From positions 62,001-126,000 of the forward strand of contig JADHVL010000003.1 of NCBI GenBank assembly GCA_016784025.1: 64,000 bases of DNA, in the 5' to 3' direction. Both the position numbers and the translations under genes were made by a program. This document shows positions 2,941-15,329 of the stretch, piece by piece; the first letter of the stretch is position 1, and each line of letters starts with the position of its first letter. Source of the stretch: Fidelibacterota bacterium (GTDB taxonomy: Bacteria; Fidelibacterota; UBA8477; JABMPR01). Under the pieces are notes generated by a model that had not been told where the DNA came from, ran no database searches, and was given only the letters and a program-made list of their open reading frames with translations.

Positions 2941-3182
2941 AACGAGTAATTCATTCAATTGCCACGACTCGACATAATGCAATTCGCCTGATCACTCATT
3001 TGCCCAATCGGGGTCACATTCGGGATACCGATTTATTGACCAGTGGTCATATCACTACATTCTTACATAAAATTAACTCAAGACCTAAAAACCTGCATTT
3101 GTAAAGGTTTTGTAGGGGTGACGGATAGGCCATTTTTCGTAAATTTAGGCAATGAACTTTGGAATCAAAAGGGGAGATAGTC

Positions 3183-6143
3183 ATGAAAAACAGAATCAGC
3201 ACCATCATGAGGACCAACGTCATCCTGATCCTTGCAATCATGTTGTCCAATATCTGTGCCTTTGGACAGGATTTTGACAATGTTGAAGTGGATTGGATGC
3301 AAACATATGGTTCAGAACTTATTTCAGCTGACAATAGAAGCGTTGATATGGTTCTTGATGTAAATGGGAATGTTTATGTTCTGGGCATAAGTGATCTAAG
3401 CTCTTCTTATTTTCCAAGTACAGAGAAGAATTACTCCGTCACCAAATTTACCCCCAATGGTGATTTTATCTGGGAGGCTCAATATAATGGACCAGCGAAT
3501 GAGCACGATTTAGCATCAGCTCTGACAGTAGATGAAGTAGAAAATGTCTATATCACAGGTAGAAGCTATGGATTGAATGGCAATTATGAAATTGCCACGG
3601 TCAAATATACATCAGATGGTACTGAGGCGTGGGTGGCAAGATATAATGGTCTGAATAACAATGGAGCAAGAGCGAAAACACTACGCGTAGATTCTGCCGG
3701 AAACATCTATGTCATGGGACTGAGTAATGGAATATCAGGGGGAATAAATGAACCAATTATCATCAAATACGCCTCGGATGGTAATGAAATGTGGGTAACT
3801 AGTGCAAATAACTCTGAGGTAGAGCTGTTTGACGCAAGGGAAATGGTATTGGATAGTGCTGGCAATATCATTATTACAGGTGAAACTATATCAGATAGCA
3901 GCTCTGCATTTAAGACTATTCGGTATACACCAGATGGTATCCAGATGTGGGCTGCTATATATAGTGGCAATGGCATTGGTTGGAATTCGCCAATAGATAT
4001 GGTTGTTGACAACGAGGGCACTGTCTATGTGGTTGGTACCAGTATTGAATCGGACAGTGTGGGCAAAGCTATCACAATAAAATATTCATCAAATGGAGTT
4101 GAAACCTGGGTCGTTGAAATTAATGAACATGGAAATGATTGGGTTCAACCATCAGCACTAGCTGTTGATGCAAATGCAAATGTATATGTAACAGGCCATG
4201 CTTTTGAAAATGACAGTCTTATCAGCTACTCGACAGTAAAGTATTCTTCAGATGGTATTGAAGCCTGGGTTGCTGCATATAGTACGTCAGAAAATAGCTG
4301 GACTCAGCCCACAGCAATGGCTTTAGACGCCGATGCAAACATATATGTTACTGGTATTACAAGTGATAGTCTTCTCAAATATTCAACGATAAAGTATTCT
4401 CCTGATGGAACTGAAATCTGGGTAGCTGAAAATAGTGATCCTGGAAATAATTGGGAAGGCCCCGTCGGATTGGCTGTTGATGCAATTGGAAATGTTTTTG
4501 TAACTAGTACTGCTCAGGATGCAAATGGTCATTCAAATTCAGTAACAACCAAATATTCAGCAGAGGGTAATGAGCTGTTGATCATCAGATATGCTCGAAA
4601 ATACAGTTGGGATAACATCTCAGACCTAGTTTTGGACACAGATGGTAATATTTATGTGACTGGTAGAAGTGAAGGCGCTGAAGGGAACCAAGACTATGCA
4701 ACGGTAAAATATTTTCCAGACGGTAATGAGGCTTGGACAGCCAGATACAATGGACCGGGAAATGGATTTGATTGGCCGCAAGCATTGGTTGTTGACCTGT
4801 TGGGAAATGTCATAGTTACGGGCAGGAGTCCTGGGTCCAGTGATGATAACGACTATGCGACCATCAAATATTCACCTGACGGCAATGAAGTGTGGGTAGC
4901 CAGATATAATGGGCAGGGAAATGATGATGATAACGCAACTGCTCTAACTGTAGACGCCCAAGGGAATATCTTTGTGACTGGTTATGGCTATGGATTAGCC
5001 GGCAATGAAGATTACGCTACAATCAAGTATTCACCAGAAGGTGATGAAATATGGGTTGCCGGATATAATGGAACTGGAGATGATCGAGATGTGGCATTCT
5101 CCTTGACAACCGACTCTGAAGGCTATGTGTATGTGACTGGATACAGTAAAGGATTAGATAGCAATTCGGATTATTTAACCATCAAATATACTCCGGATGG
5201 TACTGAATTGTGGGTAGCTAGATACAACGGTCCAGGGAATGGTTGGGATATTGCAAAAAACGTGGTTGTTGATGGAGGAGGAAATGTCTTCATAACTGGT
5301 GGTAGTGTAGGGCTGGATGGTGGTTATGATTATGCTACAGTAAAATATAATTCGATTGGTGTTGAGACCTGGTTGAGTAGATACAATGGACCTGTATCCG
5401 GGTTTGATATAGGGTGGTACCTGAGTTTGGATTCAACAGGAAACCTCTTAGTGTCCGGAACTAGTGATGCATCTGAAACTGATTGTGATTTTGTCATAAT
5501 CAAATACTTACCCGATGGTAGTGAAGCCTGGATTACAAGATCTGAGGCAGGAAACAACTGGGATGTAGCAAGTGGTATGGAAATTGATCCTGAAGGGAAT
5601 ATTTATGTGACTGGCACTAGTATTATATCGGAAACCGATAGAGATTTTGTGACGATCAAATATTCGCCAGAGGGTGACGAAATCTGGATGACCAGTTTTA
5701 GTGAAACAGAGAATAGTTGGGATGAAGCTGACTGCATAGCCCTGGATGCAGATGGCAATGTTTATGTTGGTGGAACATCGAGCTATGGTGAATCATCATT
5801 TTTTAAAACGATCAAATATTTTCAATCAACCCTAACTACTTCAGGAAGTGTTGGTTACGTTCCAGAAAGTTTTCAGCTCCACCAGAATCACCCCAACCCC
5901 TTCAATCCCACTACAACCATCATCTACTCACTTCCTGAACAATCCTCAACCAAACTGACAGTATTCGATATTAAGGGTCAGGAAGTCACGGTTCTCAGTG
6001 AATCAGAAAAACCACCAGGCTTCTACGAAGTTCAATGGAATGGGATGGATCAGTCAGGAAATCAGGTGAGCACAGGCGTGTATTTCTGTCGACTGGAAGC
6101 GGGGGAATTTAGCCAGACTATAAAGATGGTTTACTTGAGATAA
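3183..6143 (+). CDS. Secreted SBBP beta-propeller repeat protein with T9SS-type C-terminal domain
   Basis: 986 residues. After a signal peptide (MKNRISTIMRTNV, hydrophobic core, ending near CAFGQ) come 16 recognisable copies of a roughly 50-residue SBBP-type repeat. Each has a core like GNVYVTGxS, then YATIKYSPDG and WVARYNGPGN. The last 85 or so residues form a FlgD/Por-type sorting domain: HPNPFNPTTTI, then VFDIKGQEV, then STGVYFCRL and a basic end. In FCB bacteria this domain directs type IX secretion or surface attachment. The ATG at 3183 follows GGGGAGAT and is preferred to one 24 bases upstream. The protein is probably extracellular; its ligand is unknown. Confidence 0.85.
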   Translation: MKNRISTIMRTNVILILAIMLSNICAFGQDFDNVEVDWMQTYGSELISADNRSVDMVLDVNGNVYVLGISDLSSSYFPSTEKNYSVTKFTPNGDFIWEAQYNGPANEHDLASALTVDEVENVYITGRSYGLNGNYEIATVKYTSDGTEAWVARYNGLNNNGARAKTLRVDSAGNIYVMGLSNGISGGINEPIIIKYASDGNEMWVTSANNSEVELFDAREMVLDSAGNIIITGETISDSSSAFKTIRYTPDGIQMWAAIYSGNGIGWNSPIDMVVDNEGTVYVVGTSIESDSVGKAITIKYSSNGVETWVVEINEHGNDWVQPSALAVDANANVYVTGHAFENDSLISYSTVKYSSDGIEAWVAAYSTSENSWTQPTAMALDADANIYVTGITSDSLLKYSTIKYSPDGTEIWVAENSDPGNNWEGPVGLAVDAIGNVFVTSTAQDANGHSNSVTTKYSAEGNELLIIRYARKYSWDNISDLVLDTDGNIYVTGRSEGAEGNQDYATVKYFPDGNEAWTARYNGPGNGFDWPQALVVDLLGNVIVTGRSPGSSDDNDYATIKYSPDGNEVWVARYNGQGNDDDNATALTVDAQGNIFVTGYGYGLAGNEDYATIKYSPEGDEIWVAGYNGTGDDRDVAFSLTTDSEGYVYVTGYSKGLDSNSDYLTIKYTPDGTELWVARYNGPGNGWDIAKNVVVDGGGNVFITGGSVGLDGGYDYATVKYNSIGVETWLSRYNGPVSGFDIGWYLSLDSTGNLLVSGTSDASETDCDFVIIKYLPDGSEAWITRSEAGNNWDVASGMEIDPEGNIYVTGTSIISETDRDFVTIKYSPEGDEIWMTSFSETENSWDEADCIALDADGNVYVGGTSSYGESSFFKTIKYFQSTLTTSGSVGYVPESFQLHQNHPNPFNPTTTIIYSLPEQSSTKLTVFDIKGQEVTVLSESEKPPGFYEVQWNGMDQSGNQVSTGVYFCRLEAGEFSQTIKMVYLR

Positions 6144-6287: not shown

Positions 6288-7094
6288 CTAGGTTTCGTTT
6301 TTGTCAATTGCCCTCATGACTTTGCGCTGAAGAAATCCCTTAAAGAATGTGTTTAGAAAAGGTATCAGACCAAGCTTACCTGGAATGTAGACAGTTTTTT
6401 TATCTCGCTCAATGGCCTGGATAATTTGGGCCACACAAACCTCAAGACTGACAGATTCGCTGGTATGTTTCCTTGCGGAATGAGCGTGTTTTTTTCCATC
6501 TGCCCCAAAGGCGTTATCCCTGAGATTGGTACCCCTGATCCAGCTCAACACCGCTTCGAGAATAGTGATTTCACCTCTTTGCTCCATATCCAGAGTTTCT
6601 AAAAAACCATGTAAGGCATGCTTTGATGCAACGTAACCAGAGTGATTGGGGAATCCCATGATGGCTTGAGCTGTTGAACAACTTACAATTTTTCCGTTGG
6701 TCTGTTTCAATGAGGGCAGAGCAGCATGACAACAGTTTACTGCTCCATGATAATTGACATCCATCAAATCCTGGAAAAATGAGAGATCGGTAATATCCTC
6801 AAAACGACTCCACATACTGATACCAGCATTCAGGATAAGCCCATCAAGTTTGCCGTAAGCATCCACGGTAGCTTTAACCATGTTGTGGCAAGCATCAAGA
6901 TCAGTGATATCGGTTTGAACAGCTAGAGCAGATCCACCTGAGGCGTTGATGGAATCACACACCCGTTTGAGCTCATCCGCTCTCCGGGCAGCACAGACAA
7001 CCCTGGCACCCCGTTGAGCGAGTACACGCGCTAGCGCTTCCCCAATACCAGAAGAAGCCCCGGTGATAATAAAGACCTTTCCTGCTACGTTCAT
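6288..7094 (-). CDS. Short-chain dehydrogenase/reductase
   Basis: 268 residues, a classical SDR. The NAD(P)-binding motif TGASSGIG is at residues 12-19, the NAG motif is LILNAGIS, and the catalytic set is Ser (SCSTAQ) and Tyr-x3-Lys (GYVASKHAL). An Arg pair after the glycine motif (AARRADEL) suggests NADPH. It is the last gene of a four-gene minus-strand run, 29 bases after the AGPS-like gene. In that setting, reduction of acyl- or alkyl-dihydroxyacetone phosphate, or of another lipid ketone, is plausible; this is inference from neighbours only. Confidence 0.85.
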   Translation of the reverse strand: MNVAGKVFIITGASSGIGEALARVLAQRGARVVCAARRADELKRVCDSINASGGSALAVQTDITDLDACHNMVKATVDAYGKLDGLILNAGISMWSRFEDITDLSFFQDLMDVNYHGAVNCCHAALPSLKQTNGKIVSCSTAQAIMGFPNHSGYVASKHALHGFLETLDMEQRGEITILEAVLSWIRGTNLRDNAFGADGKKHAHSARKHTSESVSLEVCVAQIIQAIERDKKTVYIPGKLGLIPFLNTFFKGFLQRKVMRAIDKNET

Positions 7095-7123
7095 TCCTGA
7101 ATCAATCTGAAAGTCTGTTTAGC

Positions 7124-8893
7124 TTATTCAGCGAAAATATTGTTCCGGACACCAAAAATATTTTTCGGGTCGTGGGAGGTCTTGATTTTCTTCAGCCAAT
7201 CTATACTGGCTGGGGAAATAGTCCCCTTCATGAAATCCTTACGCAGTTTGCCAACACCGTGATGATGGGAAATTGATCCACCATTTTCCATAATGGCATC
7301 TCGCATGGCATGTTCCATTGAAGTAAAAACCTCGATGGGATTGCTCACCCCTTTGACATTAATGGCGAACATGAAATAAATGCAAACACCGGTATGGTAG
7401 ATTTGAGGAACACGATAAGAAAGATATGGCCTTCCAGGGACATTATGCTTTTTGTGGAGCTCCGTTAATCGATCATTTGCAGCCTTACACACATCGTCGA
7501 TTTTACTCCAGGGAACAGAAGTCTCCATGGTCTCACCAACAATGTGGTAGCGGGTCATAAAGTCTCTGATATAGGCTATGGCAAAAGTAAGGTTGTAGCC
7601 TTTCTTACCATTTTCAGAACCACCAATCATCCCATTATATTTTTTTGTCAGTCTTTTTATCGTTTTCTGCTGGAAGGCTACCTCATCACGCGATCCCTCT
7701 AATTTAAAAGAGGTAACGACCATTTTATATGGATCGAATTTCTTCACATTTAAGACAACGAATTTTTCAATTTTTTTGATCCAAACCTTCATTCCTGTTG
7801 CTTTGGCATTCAAGGCCTGTCCAAAACGGAATTGGGCATTGTCCATGAGTCGAGCACTGGCAGGTACAGCTCCTGTTTGCGAAAGTTCATTCATGAAAGC
7901 CACACCTATTTTCCAATCGTGGAAAAGAGCAGAATTAAAATCTGAGGCTTCAGGGAGTGCGAACACCTTTAAAGTGGCTTTGGTGATGATCCCGAAGTTT
8001 CCTTCGGAGCCGATAAGTATGTTTCGTGGACTAACTCCAATGGATGCCCGGGTAATGGGCTCGATCTGTTCTACGATGCCAGTTGGCGTAATCATGGTTA
8101 CATTTTCAACAATGTCTTCAATGTTACCATAGCGATTTTTTTTCATCCCACTGGCATTAGTGGAAATCCAGCCTCCCAGAGTAGATAGCTCGATACTGTC
8201 TGGTTCATGACCTGTGGTCAGTCCCTTGGCTTCCAGGAGTTCTTCCAGTACGCTACCCGTGATGCCAGCCTCAACAACGACGCGTCGGTTTTCCTCATCA
8301 ATTGATAGTATTGCATCCATACGTCGCGTATCTACGGCAACAACCATACGATCCTCTATCTCAGGAACCTGGAGTGCATTACTAACGCTTGTGCCACCGC
8401 CATAGGGGATAAGACACACATCATGCTCCAGTGCGAGCTTAATCAAATTTTGGGCTTCATCTTCGGACTCAATGTAAAAAACCATATCAGTTGCTCTGTC
8501 AAGTTTGGCAAAGACGACTTTATACACTTCATCTGTGGTCTGACCCTGGCTGTGCATGAGTCTCTCTTCACTACCAAAGGAAAATCTATCAACAGGAAAT
8601 TTAGATTTGACAGCATCTACAAAAACCTTGTTGATATTGGCCTCCTGTACCGGCTTATCTACAACTTCCTCTAAAACATCATCGACCTCGATCTTCATTT
8701 CCAGCATCTCTTCCACATAGGGAATGAAGTCTGGCATATCGAATCCACAGAGCTCATAGCGGTCGCCAGTCATACTTACTGTACGATCCTGGTTCAGAAT
8801 AAATTCTGAATCCCTAAAACCCCATTTGTTTCCCCAGTTGGCACTATTGACAGCGTAAAATTTTTCTTTCTTGGGAGGTGTACTATTTTTCAT
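7124..8893 (-). CDS. FAD-binding oxidase, alkyldihydroxyacetonephosphate synthase-like
   Basis: 589 residues. The N-terminal half is an FAD-binding type 4 (VAO/PCMH) domain with IPYGGGTSVSNAL and ELSTLGGWIST. The C-terminal half ends with GSISHHHGVGKLRKDF, the His-rich active-site block of alkylglycerone-phosphate synthase (AGPS), followed by KNIFGVRN. AGPS swaps the acyl chain of acyl-DHAP for a fatty alcohol, giving the ether bond of ether lipids. Length and motif order fit AGPS better than glycolate oxidase or lactate dehydrogenase subunits. It overlaps the acyltransferase gene by 11 bases, which suggests translational coupling. The true substrate is unproven. Confidence 0.8.
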   Translation of the reverse strand: MKNSTPPKKEKFYAVNSANWGNKWGFRDSEFILNQDRTVSMTGDRYELCGFDMPDFIPYVEEMLEMKIEVDDVLEEVVDKPVQEANINKVFVDAVKSKFPVDRFSFGSEERLMHSQGQTTDEVYKVVFAKLDRATDMVFYIESEDEAQNLIKLALEHDVCLIPYGGGTSVSNALQVPEIEDRMVVAVDTRRMDAILSIDEENRRVVVEAGITGSVLEELLEAKGLTTGHEPDSIELSTLGGWISTNASGMKKNRYGNIEDIVENVTMITPTGIVEQIEPITRASIGVSPRNILIGSEGNFGIITKATLKVFALPEASDFNSALFHDWKIGVAFMNELSQTGAVPASARLMDNAQFRFGQALNAKATGMKVWIKKIEKFVVLNVKKFDPYKMVVTSFKLEGSRDEVAFQQKTIKRLTKKYNGMIGGSENGKKGYNLTFAIAYIRDFMTRYHIVGETMETSVPWSKIDDVCKAANDRLTELHKKHNVPGRPYLSYRVPQIYHTGVCIYFMFAINVKGVSNPIEVFTSMEHAMRDAIMENGGSISHHHGVGKLRKDFMKGTISPASIDWLKKIKTSHDPKNIFGVRNNIFAE

Positions 8894-9614
8894 AAAGTTC
8901 CGTGGCCTTTTTTGTAATAGCTTGTTCCAACGCAGATATCATTTTCTTTGAGGCGAGTCTCAAATCATCCTCGCTGGGATTATCGTTTTCCATAAAGGAA
9001 TCAGGATAAATTGGTTCAAGAATATAGACGGCAATAGGAGTTGGACGCATTAAAAAATTACCTCGTGGCCAGGCTTTATGGGACCCATGTATTACTGCGG
9101 GTAAAATGGGTGTCTTTAAATCCAGGGAGAAACGGGCAGCCCCTTTTTTAAAGGGTAATATTTTGCCTGGAGTGCCTCTTGTACCCTCAGGGAAAAAGAT
9201 CAAACTGCGTTGTTTATAGTTCATAAAGGACTTGCACAATTTTATGGTGTCCTTGATTGAAAATTGACTAACCCCATTAATTTTGCGATCAATTGGAATC
9301 AGGTTCATCACCGTATTTATCAAGGTTCGTCTTGTCCAGCTATCAAACCAATAGTCTTTAGCTGCCATCATGCCAAAATGATTAAAACTTTTTTGTGCAG
9401 CAGCAGAAAGGAGCGCCACATCCATATGGCTATTGTGGTTGCTGCAAAAAATAAAGGATGAGTCGGGGATATTTTCGCGACCATGAACCTTCAGGGGTGT
9501 GTAAAATGTGAATACAGTTTTACTATAATAGTAAAATAAGGTTTTCCATATTTTATAGTAAAACGGCTGTTTCCCTACGAGGTAGGTGTATTTCGGATTG
9601 TCTAGCACATCCAT
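8883..9614 (-). CDS. 1-acyl-glycerol-3-phosphate acyltransferase family (PlsC-like)
   Basis: 243 residues with the family's catalytic HX4D motif (CSNHNSHMD) and the glycerophosphate-binding block FPEGTRG, followed by KKGAARF. These acyltransferases move an acyl group onto (lyso)phosphatidate or DHAP at the inner membrane. The gene starts 8 bases after the HMG-CoA reductase gene and runs 11 bases into the AGPS-like gene. Making the acyl-DHAP or acyl-glycerolipid used by its neighbours is a reasonable inference. Confidence 0.85.
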   Translation of the reverse strand: MDVLDNPKYTYLVGKQPFYYKIWKTLFYYYSKTVFTFYTPLKVHGRENIPDSSFIFCSNHNSHMDVALLSAAAQKSFNHFGMMAAKDYWFDSWTRRTLINTVMNLIPIDRKINGVSQFSIKDTIKLCKSFMNYKQRSLIFFPEGTRGTPGKILPFKKGAARFSLDLKTPILPAVIHGSHKAWPRGNFLMRPTPIAVYILEPIYPDSFMENDNPSEDDLRLASKKMISALEQAITKKATELYEK

Positions 9615-9622
9615 AAGGGACT

Positions 9623-10783
9623 CTATTTTCTACCATATTTCATATGTGCATCATTCCAGGTATGGGAGCCAATTGCACAGATGAGCGATATTTCTAGAGC
9701 AAGGGTAGCTGCGGCGATAATTTCCGCCAGTTTTCTGGATGAGTTTTCACCTTCTGCGCAACCTAGCAATTCCAGGTTTCTCTGCTGCATTTTCAGACGT
9801 GTACCACCACCAACAGTTCCAACGGTGAGGGAAGGTAGAGTCAATTTGAATTTGATACCATCATCTTGCTTTTCCAGCCCTAGATGTGCAATACTGTTTT
9901 CGGCAGCGCAAGCGGTGTCCTGACCAGTAGCCAGATAAATTGCAGTAATTGAATTTGAGACATGCAATCCATTTCCATGGGTGCCAGCCAGGCTTGACAC
10001 TGTGGGGAAAAATCCCCAGGAATCAAACAAGATATCTGGATCCATTTTGAGGATTCTTTTGAGAACGCTATTCTTTATTGTGGTTTCAGCATGAACAGCA
10101 TGACCTCGTCCCAGAAGCATATTTCTGCCAGAGGCTTTTTTATCACTATTAAAGTTGGATTCCAGAAAATAGTTATGGCCTGTCTCAGCCTGGATGTATT
10201 CACAAGCTACCTGGGCAGCCAGGGTAACCATGTTTTGTCCAGCGGCGTTCTTGGTGTCCAATACGAGATCCAGAACCACATAGTTTTGAACGGTAATCTG
10301 ATCAATTCTCAGGACTTTTCCATGTTTGGTTGTGCTCTCAGCCACTTCCATGATTTTGGCTTCGTTTTTTGTCACCCACTTCTGAAATTCGGCACTTTCA
10401 ATAATGTTGTCAAAAATAAATACAGGCGCCCGGGAGAGTTCCTGTCGGAAATGGCGTACTGTGGTTCCACCACTAAGAGTGGCAGCATAAATACCTCTGT
10501 TCATAGAGGCTGCAAGGGTTCCCTCCAAAGTACAAAGTGGAATCATGAAGTCACCATTTGCATAGGCACCGTTAATGTTCAGTGGTCCCACCACAGCCAT
10601 GGGTATTTTCATACTTCCCACATGGTTTTCAATGATGCCCTTCAGATCTTCCACTTCATCTGTCAGGGTATCATCAAGCTCTACACCAGTATAGTTTTTG
10701 ACCCAATCCCGTCGTGCCTGGGAGTCTTCAAGACTGTAACCCCGAGGGAGAAACGAATTGCGTCCATTGTTTATTTCAGACAT
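9623..10783 (-). CDS. Hydroxymethylglutaryl-CoA reductase family protein
   Basis: 386 residues, the length of an HMGR catalytic domain without a membrane anchor. The family blocks are present: ENHVGSMKIPMAVVGPL, TLEGTLAAS (catalytic Glu87), NSDKKASGRN (Lys215), LATGQD (Asp289), VGTVGGGT, and a late His380 in NDAHMKYGRK. The four catalytic residues of HMGR therefore appear conserved. The nucleotide-binding DAMGMN region is diverged (NAAGQNMVT). HMGR reduces HMG-CoA to mevalonate. It heads a run with PlsC-, AGPS- and SDR-like genes, and the same window holds MEP-pathway genes ispF and ispE, so its role in this organism is not obvious. Confidence 0.85.
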   Translation of the reverse strand: MSEINNGRNSFLPRGYSLEDSQARRDWVKNYTGVELDDTLTDEVEDLKGIIENHVGSMKIPMAVVGPLNINGAYANGDFMIPLCTLEGTLAASMNRGIYAATLSGGTTVRHFRQELSRAPVFIFDNIIESAEFQKWVTKNEAKIMEVAESTTKHGKVLRIDQITVQNYVVLDLVLDTKNAAGQNMVTLAAQVACEYIQAETGHNYFLESNFNSDKKASGRNMLLGRGHAVHAETTIKNSVLKRILKMDPDILFDSWGFFPTVSSLAGTHGNGLHVSNSITAIYLATGQDTACAAENSIAHLGLEKQDDGIKFKLTLPSLTVGTVGGGTRLKMQQRNLELLGCAEGENSSRKLAEIIAAATLALEISLICAIGSHTWNDAHMKYGRK

Positions 10784-10949: not shown

Positions 10950-10977
10950 AAAAACCCCAGGAGGGCCCGGGGTTTTT
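10950..10977. terminator. Intrinsic terminator downstream of rpsU
   Basis: AAAAACCCC (10950-10958) pairs with GGGGTTTTT (10969-10977) around a 10-base loop. On the minus strand the stem ends in a T run, as needed to stop rpoD-rpsU transcripts. The U tract on both strands means it could also work in the other direction. Confidence 0.75.
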
Positions 10978-12399: not shown

Positions 12400-13038
12400 T
12401 TGGATAAACTGCCAGTGGAAACCCAGGCACAAAATCATTTTTATGATGGTTGGATATACAGGAACCTTTTGGATCCCTCTCTCAGGGGTATTCGAATAAG
12501 AATTTCACGACTCATCCCTGAAAACAGTACTGTACTTGATGTGGGTTGTGGAACTGGTGATCAATTGTTTTTCATCTCAAAACAAATAGAATCTGGCCTG
12601 GGTGTAGAATTGTCTGGAGCCATGATTAATACCTGTGAGGAGCAGGCTGGCCTGAGAAAAATCAAAAACTGTAAATTTTTGTTGGCTGATGCCAGTAACC
12701 TGGCGAATCTGGAGAACCAATCTTTTGACTACGCCATCACAAGCATGGTTATCCATGAAATGCCTGAAGAAGTCCGCATCCCTGTGCTTAAAGAAATGAT
12801 GCGGATTGGGAAGCAGCTTATTCTGGTGGATTGGATTTATCCCCAGCCGAAATTGATAAAGAAGTTCAGCACTCACCTGGTTGAACGAATTGCTGGCAAA
12901 GAACACTATGCTGGTTTTCGTTCGTTTATGGGACAGGGCGGAATGCCGGCACTTATAAAGACCCTTGGGCTTGATGTGATTGAAACCCAAATTACAGGCA
13001 AGGGCACCATTCAATTGTGGGTATGCAGAACCCCATAA
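12400..13038 (+). CDS. Class I SAM-dependent methyltransferase
   Basis: 212 residues. SAM-binding motif I is VLDVGCGTGDQ (about residues 45-55), the acidic end of strand 2 is GVELSGAM, and motif II is LADASNLANL. The fold is the UbiE/type-11 methyltransferase kind. The start is a TTG at 12400 with AGAGGAG about 9 bases upstream; no ATG gives a full domain. The substrate (small molecule, quinone or lipid) cannot be told. It is separated from the next gene by about 80 bases. Confidence 0.8.
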   Translation: MDKLPVETQAQNHFYDGWIYRNLLDPSLRGIRIRISRLIPENSTVLDVGCGTGDQLFFISKQIESGLGVELSGAMINTCEEQAGLRKIKNCKFLLADASNLANLENQSFDYAITSMVIHEMPEEVRIPVLKEMMRIGKQLILVDWIYPQPKLIKKFSTHLVERIAGKEHYAGFRSFMGQGGMPALIKTLGLDVIETQITGKGTIQLWVCRTP

Positions 13039-13121
13039 GAAACATTAGGGTGTATATTCGGTATAACAGATCAGTTATGATTGCCAAAGCTGGGTTACAA
13101 ATTTCAAAACGGGGGATCAAA

Positions 13122-15329
13122 ATGAAACGTCTACTTCTAGCACTTCTAGTTCTTGCCATGCCACTCATGTCAGCTTCCACTGGTGGTATTAAAGGGCGGG
13201 TAACCGATGCCAAGACTGGTGAGTCTCTTGTTGGTGTGAATGTGATCATAGAAAAGCATAATCTGGGTGCTTCAACAGACCGTAAAGGCAATTATAAAAT
13301 AATCAATATTCCTGAAGGTCTTTACACGGTTTCCGCCACCATGATTGGCTATACCCCTGAGTCAGTTAAAAAGGTGAAAGTAAAAGCCGGAAAAATAAAG
13401 AAAGTAAATTTTAAACTGAAGGCTCAAAAGATAAAGGGAGAATCGGTCACAGTCACAGCCACGAGACCACTGGATACCAAGGGTAGAACCTCATCAAAAA
13501 GCACAGGGTCATCCTCAGAAGTGATGACAGGCAGCTCTTCAGGCAAAAAACCAGCGAAAAAAGATAGTGAAGATACACCACCACCAAAACCGGGGAGGTT
13601 GACAAGACCTCGACCTTCCATACCTGTTGAAAGTGAAGAAACTGGAAGTTTGGACGAGGAACCGACCCATGATCTTTTTGATGCACCTGAATCAGGTGGT
13701 CATGCCCCTCCTCCACCTGCTTCGGACAGGACTAGTTTTATGGTCACCCCTTCTGATGGTAAAGCCAAACCTACATCTAGACCAGCGCCCCCGCAATCAG
13801 GAGGTTTGAAGGCAGGCTTTGCCGATGACAATCAGCAATTCAATTATTTTCTGAATTTTTTAAATCAATACAGATCATCAGTGAACAGCTATAGCTATGA
13901 TATAAGCGAGCGTATTCATTTGATGTTGGAAGACAAAGATGGCAAAAGCCTCCCTAATGTGAACATAAAGATTTTTGATGGTAAAGAGAGTCGACTTCTG
14001 GATGAGGGCAAAACTTATGCGGATGGTTCTTACTTTTTCTATCCCTCTGAAGTTGCAGCCAAAGACAAAACCTTTTATGTCGGTTACACTGTGAATGACG
14101 TTTATCAGACTGTAATGGTAAAACGCTATGGACCTCGTAAAATTACTATTCAGGGAGAAAAATCACGAGACCTGCAACCAGGTGTGCCGGTGGATATCGT
14201 TTTTATCCTGGATACCACTGGAAGCATGGGAGAGGAAATTAAACGTCTCATCGCTACCATAGATTTGATCCATATGAATCTATCCGCCCTTTCGAGTAAG
14301 GCGCTGATTCGATTTGGGATGGTGCTTTATCGAGATAAAGATGACAAATATCGCACAAAAGTGGTGCCACTTACTGCTGACATTGATGAATTTCGTGGAG
14401 CCCTGGAAGAGGTGAGAGCTGGTGGAGGTGGTGATACGCCTGAAGATTTACAGACAGCTTTACATAAGGCCATGCGGAATGTGGACTGGAATGAGGATGG
14501 TCTGCGCCTGGGCTTTGTCATTACTGATGCATCAGCACATCTGGACTACGGACAGAGATATACCTACATCTCAGCTGCCCTGGAAGCCAAAAAGAAAGGT
14601 ATCAAATTATTCACCGTGGGAACCGGCGGTCTTGGTTTGCGAGGTGAGTATGTGCTGCGGCAGATTTCTCAACTTACTTATGCCAAATATCTATTTTTAA
14701 CCTATGGAAAAGAGACTGGTGAAAATACAGGTGGAGTGACTGGTAGTGTGAGTCATCATACAGGATCCAACTATCAAACCGATAAACTGGAAGCCATTAT
14801 CATGCGACTGGCCAAAGAGGAAATCTCTAATTTTACCGATGATCCTCTGGAAATCGATGATGGCTACTTTGAAGCTGAGAAGGTGGACCATGAATCCAGA
14901 GAGGAAACCCTGTCGAAGCTCTTCAAGGATGCAATTTCCAACCTAATCGATTACTCCACACTCAAGATTGAGGACTCCAGGAGACTGGGAGTCCTGCCGA
15001 TCCACCCAAAAACAGAACATTCTGGGCTGAGTGCTGAATATTTCCAGGAACAGGTTCAGTTATCAGTGGCACAAAACAATCAGTTTATCCTCATTGCCCG
15101 CAAGGACCTCCAGGCCGTTCTGGAAGAACAAAAACTACAGCTGTCAGGTCTTCTGACAGAGGCACAGACCACTAAAATTGGGGAGCTATTGGGAGCAGAG
15201 CTTCTTCTGGCAGGCGAGCTTTATGAAAAGGAGGAAAGTTATGATCTTTTTCTCAAATTGCTGCGGGTGGAAACAGCTGAAATACTGGCTGTGACCAAGA
15301 TTATCATTGATAAGGATCTGGGGCTTTAG
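13122..15329 (+). CDS. Exported fusion: carboxypeptidase-regulatory domain, VWA domain, CsgG/FlgO-like domain
   Basis: 735 residues. After the signal peptide (MKRLLLALLVLAMPLMSAS) there is a CarboxypepD-regulatory domain (about 22-105), then a Pro/Ser-rich linker (118-235). A von Willebrand A domain begins near 353 with an intact MIDAS start, FILDTTGSMGEE. The last 125 or so residues (VAQNNQFILIARKDLQAVLE, then IGELLGAELLLAGELYEKE) resemble the CsgG/LpoB/FlgO fold of outer-membrane assembly proteins. The ATG at 13122 follows GGGGGA; an upstream in-frame frame would lack a signal peptide. It is probably a periplasmic or surface adhesion or assembly protein, perhaps working with the TonB receptor 157 bases downstream. 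The domain calls come from pattern recognition, and the C-terminal one is the least certain. Confidence 0.75.
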   Translation: MKRLLLALLVLAMPLMSASTGGIKGRVTDAKTGESLVGVNVIIEKHNLGASTDRKGNYKIINIPEGLYTVSATMIGYTPESVKKVKVKAGKIKKVNFKLKAQKIKGESVTVTATRPLDTKGRTSSKSTGSSSEVMTGSSSGKKPAKKDSEDTPPPKPGRLTRPRPSIPVESEETGSLDEEPTHDLFDAPESGGHAPPPPASDRTSFMVTPSDGKAKPTSRPAPPQSGGLKAGFADDNQQFNYFLNFLNQYRSSVNSYSYDISERIHLMLEDKDGKSLPNVNIKIFDGKESRLLDEGKTYADGSYFFYPSEVAAKDKTFYVGYTVNDVYQTVMVKRYGPRKITIQGEKSRDLQPGVPVDIVFILDTTGSMGEEIKRLIATIDLIHMNLSALSSKALIRFGMVLYRDKDDKYRTKVVPLTADIDEFRGALEEVRAGGGGDTPEDLQTALHKAMRNVDWNEDGLRLGFVITDASAHLDYGQRYTYISAALEAKKKGIKLFTVGTGGLGLRGEYVLRQISQLTYAKYLFLTYGKETGENTGGVTGSVSHHTGSNYQTDKLEAIIMRLAKEEISNFTDDPLEIDDGYFEAEKVDHESREETLSKLFKDAISNLIDYSTLKIEDSRRLGVLPIHPKTEHSGLSAEYFQEQVQLSVAQNNQFILIARKDLQAVLEEQKLQLSGLLTEAQTTKIGELLGAELLLAGELYEKEESYDLFLKLLRVETAEILAVTKIIIDKDLGL

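Follow-up and report, generated by a model that had tools for sequence, protein, structure and literature searches.

Ether-lipid synthesis in mammalian peroxisomes relies on FAR1, GNPAT, AGPS and a short-chain dehydrogenase (SDR; PexRAP/DHRS7B, DHRS7) for four steps (PMC9131029; PMC13200781). Among bacteria, Myxococcus xanthus has an AGPS operon, MXAN_1676-1674, containing a FAR1-GNPAT-like fusion, the loss of which lowers ether lipids slightly (PMC9131029). The anaerobic plasmalogen (PlsA/PlsR) and Ger routes also lead to bacterial glycerol ethers. FcrA, a fatty acyl-CoA reductase derived from HMG-CoA reductase (HMGR), was reported in 2025 and was discovered via wax-ester synthesis in haloarchaea; with NADPH as reductant, the purified enzyme reduces acyl-CoA of at least C14 but not HMG-CoA, and simvastatin does not inhibit it (Grossi et al., 2025; PMC11948995). 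In Ca. Promineifilum breve, AGPS and fcrA are nine genes apart, from which an ether-lipid use of FcrA was foreseen; in Coxiella burnetii, fcrA has a PlsC-like gene as its neighbour (Grossi et al., 2025; PMC11948995). The locus described here is a four-gene operon in a 64,000-nucleotide stretch ("the window") of a Fidelibacterota genome (contig JADHVL010000003.1). Very probably, it encodes a complete eukaryote-type route via dihydroxyacetone phosphate (DHAP), converting acyl-CoA and DHAP into 1-O-alkyl-glycerol-3-phosphate (1-O-alkyl-G3P), the precursor of alkyl ether phospholipids.

The four minus-strand open reading frames (ORFs) lie where the preliminary description had placed them and encode, in transcription order, an HMGR-family protein, a PlsC-like acyltransferase, AGPS and an SDR (Table 1). 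The first two genes are separated by 8 bases, the PlsC-like and AGPS genes overlap by 11 bases, and 29 bases separate AGPS from the SDR gene; this tight spacing, the Pfam matches and the conserved co-occurrence bear out the proposed operon. The HMGR-fold protein, of FcrA type, would use NADPH for the four-electron reduction of a long-chain acyl-CoA to a fatty alcohol. The PlsC-like enzyme would convert DHAP to 1-acyl-DHAP, AGPS would swap the acyl chain for the fatty alcohol to give 1-O-alkyl-DHAP, and the SDR would reduce this with NADPH to 1-O-alkyl-G3P, to which a housekeeping PlsC would afterwards add the sn-2 chain. Given a genuine AGPS in a conserved operon, the eukaryote-type ether-glycerolipid route put forward in the preliminary description is still the best reading.

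Each known system shares part of this design. The mammalian pathway has the same four steps, a homologous AGPS and a reductase of the SDR superfamily, but in the window the alcohol maker has the HMGR fold instead of being a FAR, the acyltransferase is PlsC-like, and all genes form one operon. In the Myxococcus locus, too, AGPS is accompanied by a module for fatty alcohol and by a GNPAT-like acyltransferase; however, its FAR1-like domain is fused to the acyltransferase, its third gene is of the epimerase/dehydratase type, and the main ether-lipid enzyme of the organism is ElbD of the elb cluster (PMC9131029). The PlsA/PlsR and Ger routes resemble the operon only in product class, as they start from a completed diacyl lipid, convert an ester bond in it and involve neither AGPS nor a DHAP route. 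With published FcrA, the window protein has in common the class-I HMGR fold, the four catalytic residues, the changes at Ser684, Lys735 and Leu862 and a genome without the mevalonate pathway, whereas it is locked into an operon with PlsC-like, AGPS and SDR genes and has no N-terminal Lad or ACP domain. The earlier statement that no bacterial operon of this content had been described was thus nearly right, a related AGPS operon with its FAR-acyltransferase fusion being known from Myxococcus (PMC9131029). What is new here is the direct joining of FcrA with PlsC-like, AGPS and SDR genes, the breadth of this arrangement and the replacement of FcrA by a FAR in one relative.

Judged by its sequence, the flavoenzyme is a genuine alkyl-DHAP synthase. 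It matches guinea-pig AGPS (4bby) over 565 residues (phmmer, E=1.1e-140, 473 bits), is 39% identical to mammalian AGPS and scores 255 bits against Dictyostelium AGPS (2uuu), the two eukaryotic AGPS sequences compared, but only 89 bits against the lactate dehydrogenase subunit LctD. Eight positions that we take, from AGPS structures, to form the active site (H300, T309, R419, R515, Y578 and H615-H617) do not vary among guinea pig, Dictyostelium, the window and the full set of aligned operon copies, save for Ser in place of Thr309 in two, while GlcD-like enzymes of the same phylum have lost nearly all of them. In a maximum-likelihood tree, the GlcD-like and LctD-like enzymes stand apart at 100/100, and the clade of the window protein joins guinea-pig AGPS at 96/98. 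The AGPS-like assignment made earlier is therefore upheld, and the clustering with glycolate or lactate oxidases that had been named as its refutation is not seen.

The first gene almost certainly encodes a predicted FcrA-type fatty-alcohol maker that has lost the HMGR function, since it carries the FcrA substitutions while keeping the four catalytic residues. FcrA differs from HMGR by the change of Ser684 to Glu, the loss of Lys735 and a bulky residue in place of Leu862 (Grossi et al., 2025; PMC11948995); the lysine is printed there as Lys795, but the numbering of the same paper for N. pharaonis (Lys367=691, Gly411, Asp441=767) fits Lys735. In the first phylum sample, Glu559, Lys691, Asp767 and His866 (human numbering), catalytic in HMGR, are kept in 25 of 25 proteins. 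The Ser684 position holds Glu in 24 and Asp in one, Lys735 is replaced throughout (by F, L, Y, V, I or Q), and the Leu862 position holds Phe (14/25) or Trp (11/25). The HMGR cofactor motif DAMGMNM mostly reads NAAGQNM, with Met657 changed to Gln in all 25; this change is an addition of the present analysis, outside the published FcrA marks. The pattern at 684, 657 (Gln; human Met) and 862 recurs in 80 further relatives from named genomes, one of them truncated, and these also keep the catalytic four, save one unreadable (X) and one truncated position. An AlphaFold2 model (pLDDT 91), with archaeal HMGR 6hr7 as its best PDB match in Foldseek, confirms the HMGR fold for the predicted structure and says nothing on pocket or substrate. 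In the tree of first-gene proteins, 62 rows, nearly all AGPS-linked, form one clade with strong support (100/99), from which three canonical HMGRs stand separate. The preliminary description had advised looking for a fatty-alcohol source elsewhere in the genome; such a source is indeed predicted, but as the first gene of the operon itself.

Counting as true AGPS those with at least 50% identity, 54 of 245 Fidelibacterota genomes contain AGPS and 52 the first gene; both occur together in 52, AGPS alone in two and the first gene alone in none (Fisher p=2e-51, a value that ignores relatedness). The pair is adjacent on one contig in 51 of the 52 genomes, the exception being G215, where the first gene runs off the contig end. 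Even within the genus the distribution is patchy, nine genomes having the operon and ten lacking it, so that the first gene and AGPS have been gained or lost together. Among operon-linked loci from named genomes, 50 of 61 have all four genes, and contig ends truncate most of the others. Outside Fidelibacterota, the block is present in six more phyla, on contigs that bear the names Planctomycetota, Caldithrix (Calditrichota), KSB1, Gammaproteobacteria/Legionellales, Akkermansia (Verrucomicrobiota) and Cyclobacteriaceae, with the order PlsC-AGPS-FcrA in Legionellales. The gene order, which according to the preliminary description should recur in relatives, is thus conserved across the phylum and beyond. 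A Black Sea survey found AGPS homologues in 49 of 134 metagenome-assembled genomes (MAGs) of Marinisomatota (PMC11868695). No paper was found in a literature search for ether lipids in SAR406. SAR406 is the marine lineage that corresponds to Fidelibacterota.

The two genomes with AGPS but no FcrA are G211, represented by a contig fragment only, and G107, in which the operon reads X-PlsC-AGPS-SDR. X (L047:12303-13994, contig C11, 563 aa) matches NAD_binding_4 (PF07993, 219 bits) and Sterile (PF03015, 54 bits), both above cut-off; this domain make-up is that of a eukaryote-type fatty acyl-CoA reductase (FAR), unrelated to FcrA. As a general screen for FARs, PF07993 proved unsuitable because nearly every one of 149 genomes matches through epimerase cross-matches; G107 alone stands out (~220 bits, the next at 80 bits). 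Because an unrelated enzyme of the expected activity fills the FcrA slot, G107 provides the best independent evidence on the task of that slot and points to fatty-alcohol production. Its arrangement also comes near an unfused form of the Myxococcus operon. Apart from the operon, G107 has a strong match (E=2e-44) to Lipid_desat (PF10520, the CarF/PEDS1 family) at L143:2658-3473 on contig C17, with weak matches in three genus mates (G029, G065 and G080), and may go on to plasmalogens. PF10520 has no match in the window genome, and vinyl ethers are therefore not claimed for it.

The two remaining enzymes are well conserved, and it is above all for these that we infer substrates, as we do for each step and for ether-lipid production itself. 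The PlsC-like protein has HX4D (H60-D65) and FPEGTR (141-146) motifs; at least 95% of 62 operon copies share their key residues. The SDR exceeds the cut-off of NF004825 (246.5/215), and its Tyr-x3-Lys pair (Y154, K158), glycine motif and NADPH-type Arg37 are conserved in 51 operon copies; the pair and the arginine are features expected of alkyl/acyl-DHAP reductases such as DHRS7B and Ayr1. Within the same pathway, the PlsC-like enzyme could instead acylate 1-alkyl-G3P at sn-2, with acyl-DHAP supplied by another acyltransferase or by oxidation of 1-acyl-G3P. By family model the protein is indeed PlsC-like rather than GPAT/GNPAT-like, and sn-2 acylation is what PlsC performs in ordinary lipids. 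However, the window genome (G000) has four PF01553 matches, the operon protein among them, and the others could serve sn-2; for ordinary ester lipids the genome also has PlsY along with further PlsC-like proteins. DHAP acylation would otherwise be the sole missing step, the Myxococcus AGPS operon has its FAR fused to a GNPAT-like acyltransferase (PMC9131029), and in nearly all copies the gene sits between the alcohol-making reductase and AGPS. The sn-2 role is thus somewhat unlikely, and DHAP acylation is preferred.

The alcohol might also flow mainly into wax esters or other neutral lipids, with AGPS using it merely in passing, as the haloarchaeal setting in which FcrA was discovered would suggest. 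This is very unlikely, given that FcrA never occurs without AGPS in Fidelibacterota; WS/DGAT, the wax-ester family, had no match in 16 phylum genomes, a weak negative as no control gave a signal. The preliminary description had hinted at a true HMGR that makes mevalonate for an ether lipid with an isoprenoid or mevalonate-dependent branched chain. The strong PF00368 match, the conserved catalytic residues and the HMGR name given in automatic annotation speak for it, but all 25 proteins lack the HMG-binding Ser684 and Lys735 and have a bulky residue for Leu862, the NCBIfam HMGR models are missed by far (283 against a cut-off of 441.8), and the slot in G107 is filled by a FAR, not by an HMGR. 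Moreover, apart from the first gene nothing in the window genome (3.5 Mb, 86% complete) matches PF00368, and HMG-CoA synthase has no match there; three other operon-bearing genomes give merely sub-cut-off matches to the synthase. IspG of the methylerythritol phosphate (MEP) pathway is present in 15 of 16 genomes searched, including that of the window, and the HMGR homologue therefore has no mevalonate pathway to serve. On the FcrA marks, the sole PF00368 match, the unmatched HMG-CoA synthase and IspG, a mevalonate-pathway HMGR was rejected, and the mevalonate-dependent alkyl part, now highly improbable, falls with it. That the flavoenzyme is a glycolate/lactate-type oxidase in a cluster for some other metabolism, as the shared PF01565/PF02913 domains and the best NCBIfam name (GlcD, 140 bits, far under its cut-off) might suggest, is next to inconceivable and was dismissed on the AGPS score, the active-site positions and the tree.

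Some observations weigh against the complete DHAP route. The PlsC-like protein falls under the AGP_acyltrn cut-off (66.8 vs 102.95), and nothing in it marks DHAP as its substrate; similarly, the SDR family model is functionally undefined. The Lys735 column adjoins an alignment gap, and one relative (L104, Calditrichota) aligns Lys there. The first-gene tree was built without either characterised FcrA sequence, and no AGPS lies close to L116 (Planctomycetota), which belongs to the operon-linked FcrA clade. In addition, absences from the window genome are provisional at its level of completeness. The sequences establish the gene content, order and conservation, the identity of AGPS, the FcrA marks, the unmatched HMG-CoA synthase, the presence of the MEP pathway and the FAR replacement.

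Operons of Planctomycetota, KSB1, Calditrichota, Verrucomicrobiota and Legionellales (L102, L103, L104, L106, L108-L110, L112, L117 and L118) carry a second AGPS lineage, which is ~30% identical to the window AGPS and keeps the active-site positions. The copy tested (L106) scores 457 bits against Dictyostelium AGPS and 305 against guinea pig. In Fidelibacterota loci L099-L101 and L111, FcrA groups with the second FcrA set, but the AGPS of L099, L101 and L111, which are full-length, groups with the first lineage; this conflict between the trees suggests that single genes have been exchanged within the operon as modules. As the Fidelibacterota AGPS is far nearer the animal enzyme (473 vs 255 bits) and the Planctomycetota type far nearer Dictyostelium (457 vs 305), the eukaryotic peroxisomal pathway might trace to such bacterial operons, AGPS possibly having been taken from bacteria twice, an idea that is doubtful. 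On this reading, a major phylum of the ocean would use an HMGR turned to a new purpose to produce alkyl lipids of the animal type. A third AGPS-like group in the phylum, with 27-29% identity, comprises G132:C199:9250-10662, G221:C295:5118-6545 and a copy on G067:C96; the two copies aligned (G132, G067) have HQH for HHH at the catalytic histidines.

Among named relatives, the nearest to the window genome are MAGs of Candidatus Neomarinimicrobiota, at 98% for the first gene, which places it in the phylum Fidelibacterota of the FCB group. Upstream of the operon lies an rpsU-like ORF of 63 codons (11190-10999), with a strong hairpin in between, and downstream a convergent gene (3159-6143, plus strand). 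Elsewhere in the window, a predicted secreted protein (13017-15329, plus strand) combines, by eye, an N-terminal carboxypeptidase-regulatory-like repeat, a von Willebrand-like middle and a CsgG-like end. FcrA-like genes also occur in other settings. In Streptomyces bobili (L123:6955-11364), an FcrA-like domain (PF00368 at 704-1076) is part of a 1469-aa open frame in which no other Pfam domain was found and which may be partly spurious. PPDK_N/PEP-utiliser proteins are encoded downstream of FcrA-like genes in L124 (Dyadobacter) and L131 (Coxiellaceae bacterium), the latter neighbourhood also containing UbiA and DUF3419, a context different from that of the operon.

Table 1. Genes of the operon and its upstream boundary in the window.
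Feature	Position	Strand	Evidence
FcrA-type fatty acyl-CoA reductase, class-I HMGR fold, 386 aa, predicted long-chain fatty alcohol maker	9623..10783	-	PF00368 E=3e-101
PlsC-like acyltransferase, 243 aa, predicted to acylate DHAP (alternative role: sn-2 acylation)	8883..9614	-	PF01553 E=1.8e-23
Alkyl-DHAP synthase (AGPS), FAD, 589 aa, predicted to exchange the acyl of acyl-DHAP for fatty alcohol	7124..8893	-	PF01565+PF02913; phmmer
Short-chain dehydrogenase (SDR), 268 aa, predicted NADPH-dependent alkyl/acyl-DHAP reductase	6288..7094	-	PF00106 E=8e-47
Terminator-like hairpin ahead of operon, upstream boundary mark	10950..10977	-	12-pair stem then T-rich tail; consensus match only

If the DHAP route is correct, an apparent mevalonate gene in a MEP-pathway bacterium becomes the alcohol supplier that an animal-type ether-lipid route had lacked, and a single operon would hold the whole route in an ocean phylum that is abundant but barely cultured. 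For FcrA, this would be an independent physiological setting in addition to wax esters. The exchange of FcrA for a FAR in one relative amounts to a natural functional test, and many bacterial "HMG-CoA reductase" annotations beside AGPS would deserve renaming. The predicted product is definite, namely 1-O-alkyl glycerolipids, which makes these bacteria a candidate source of the non-isoprenoid alkyl ethers of seawater.

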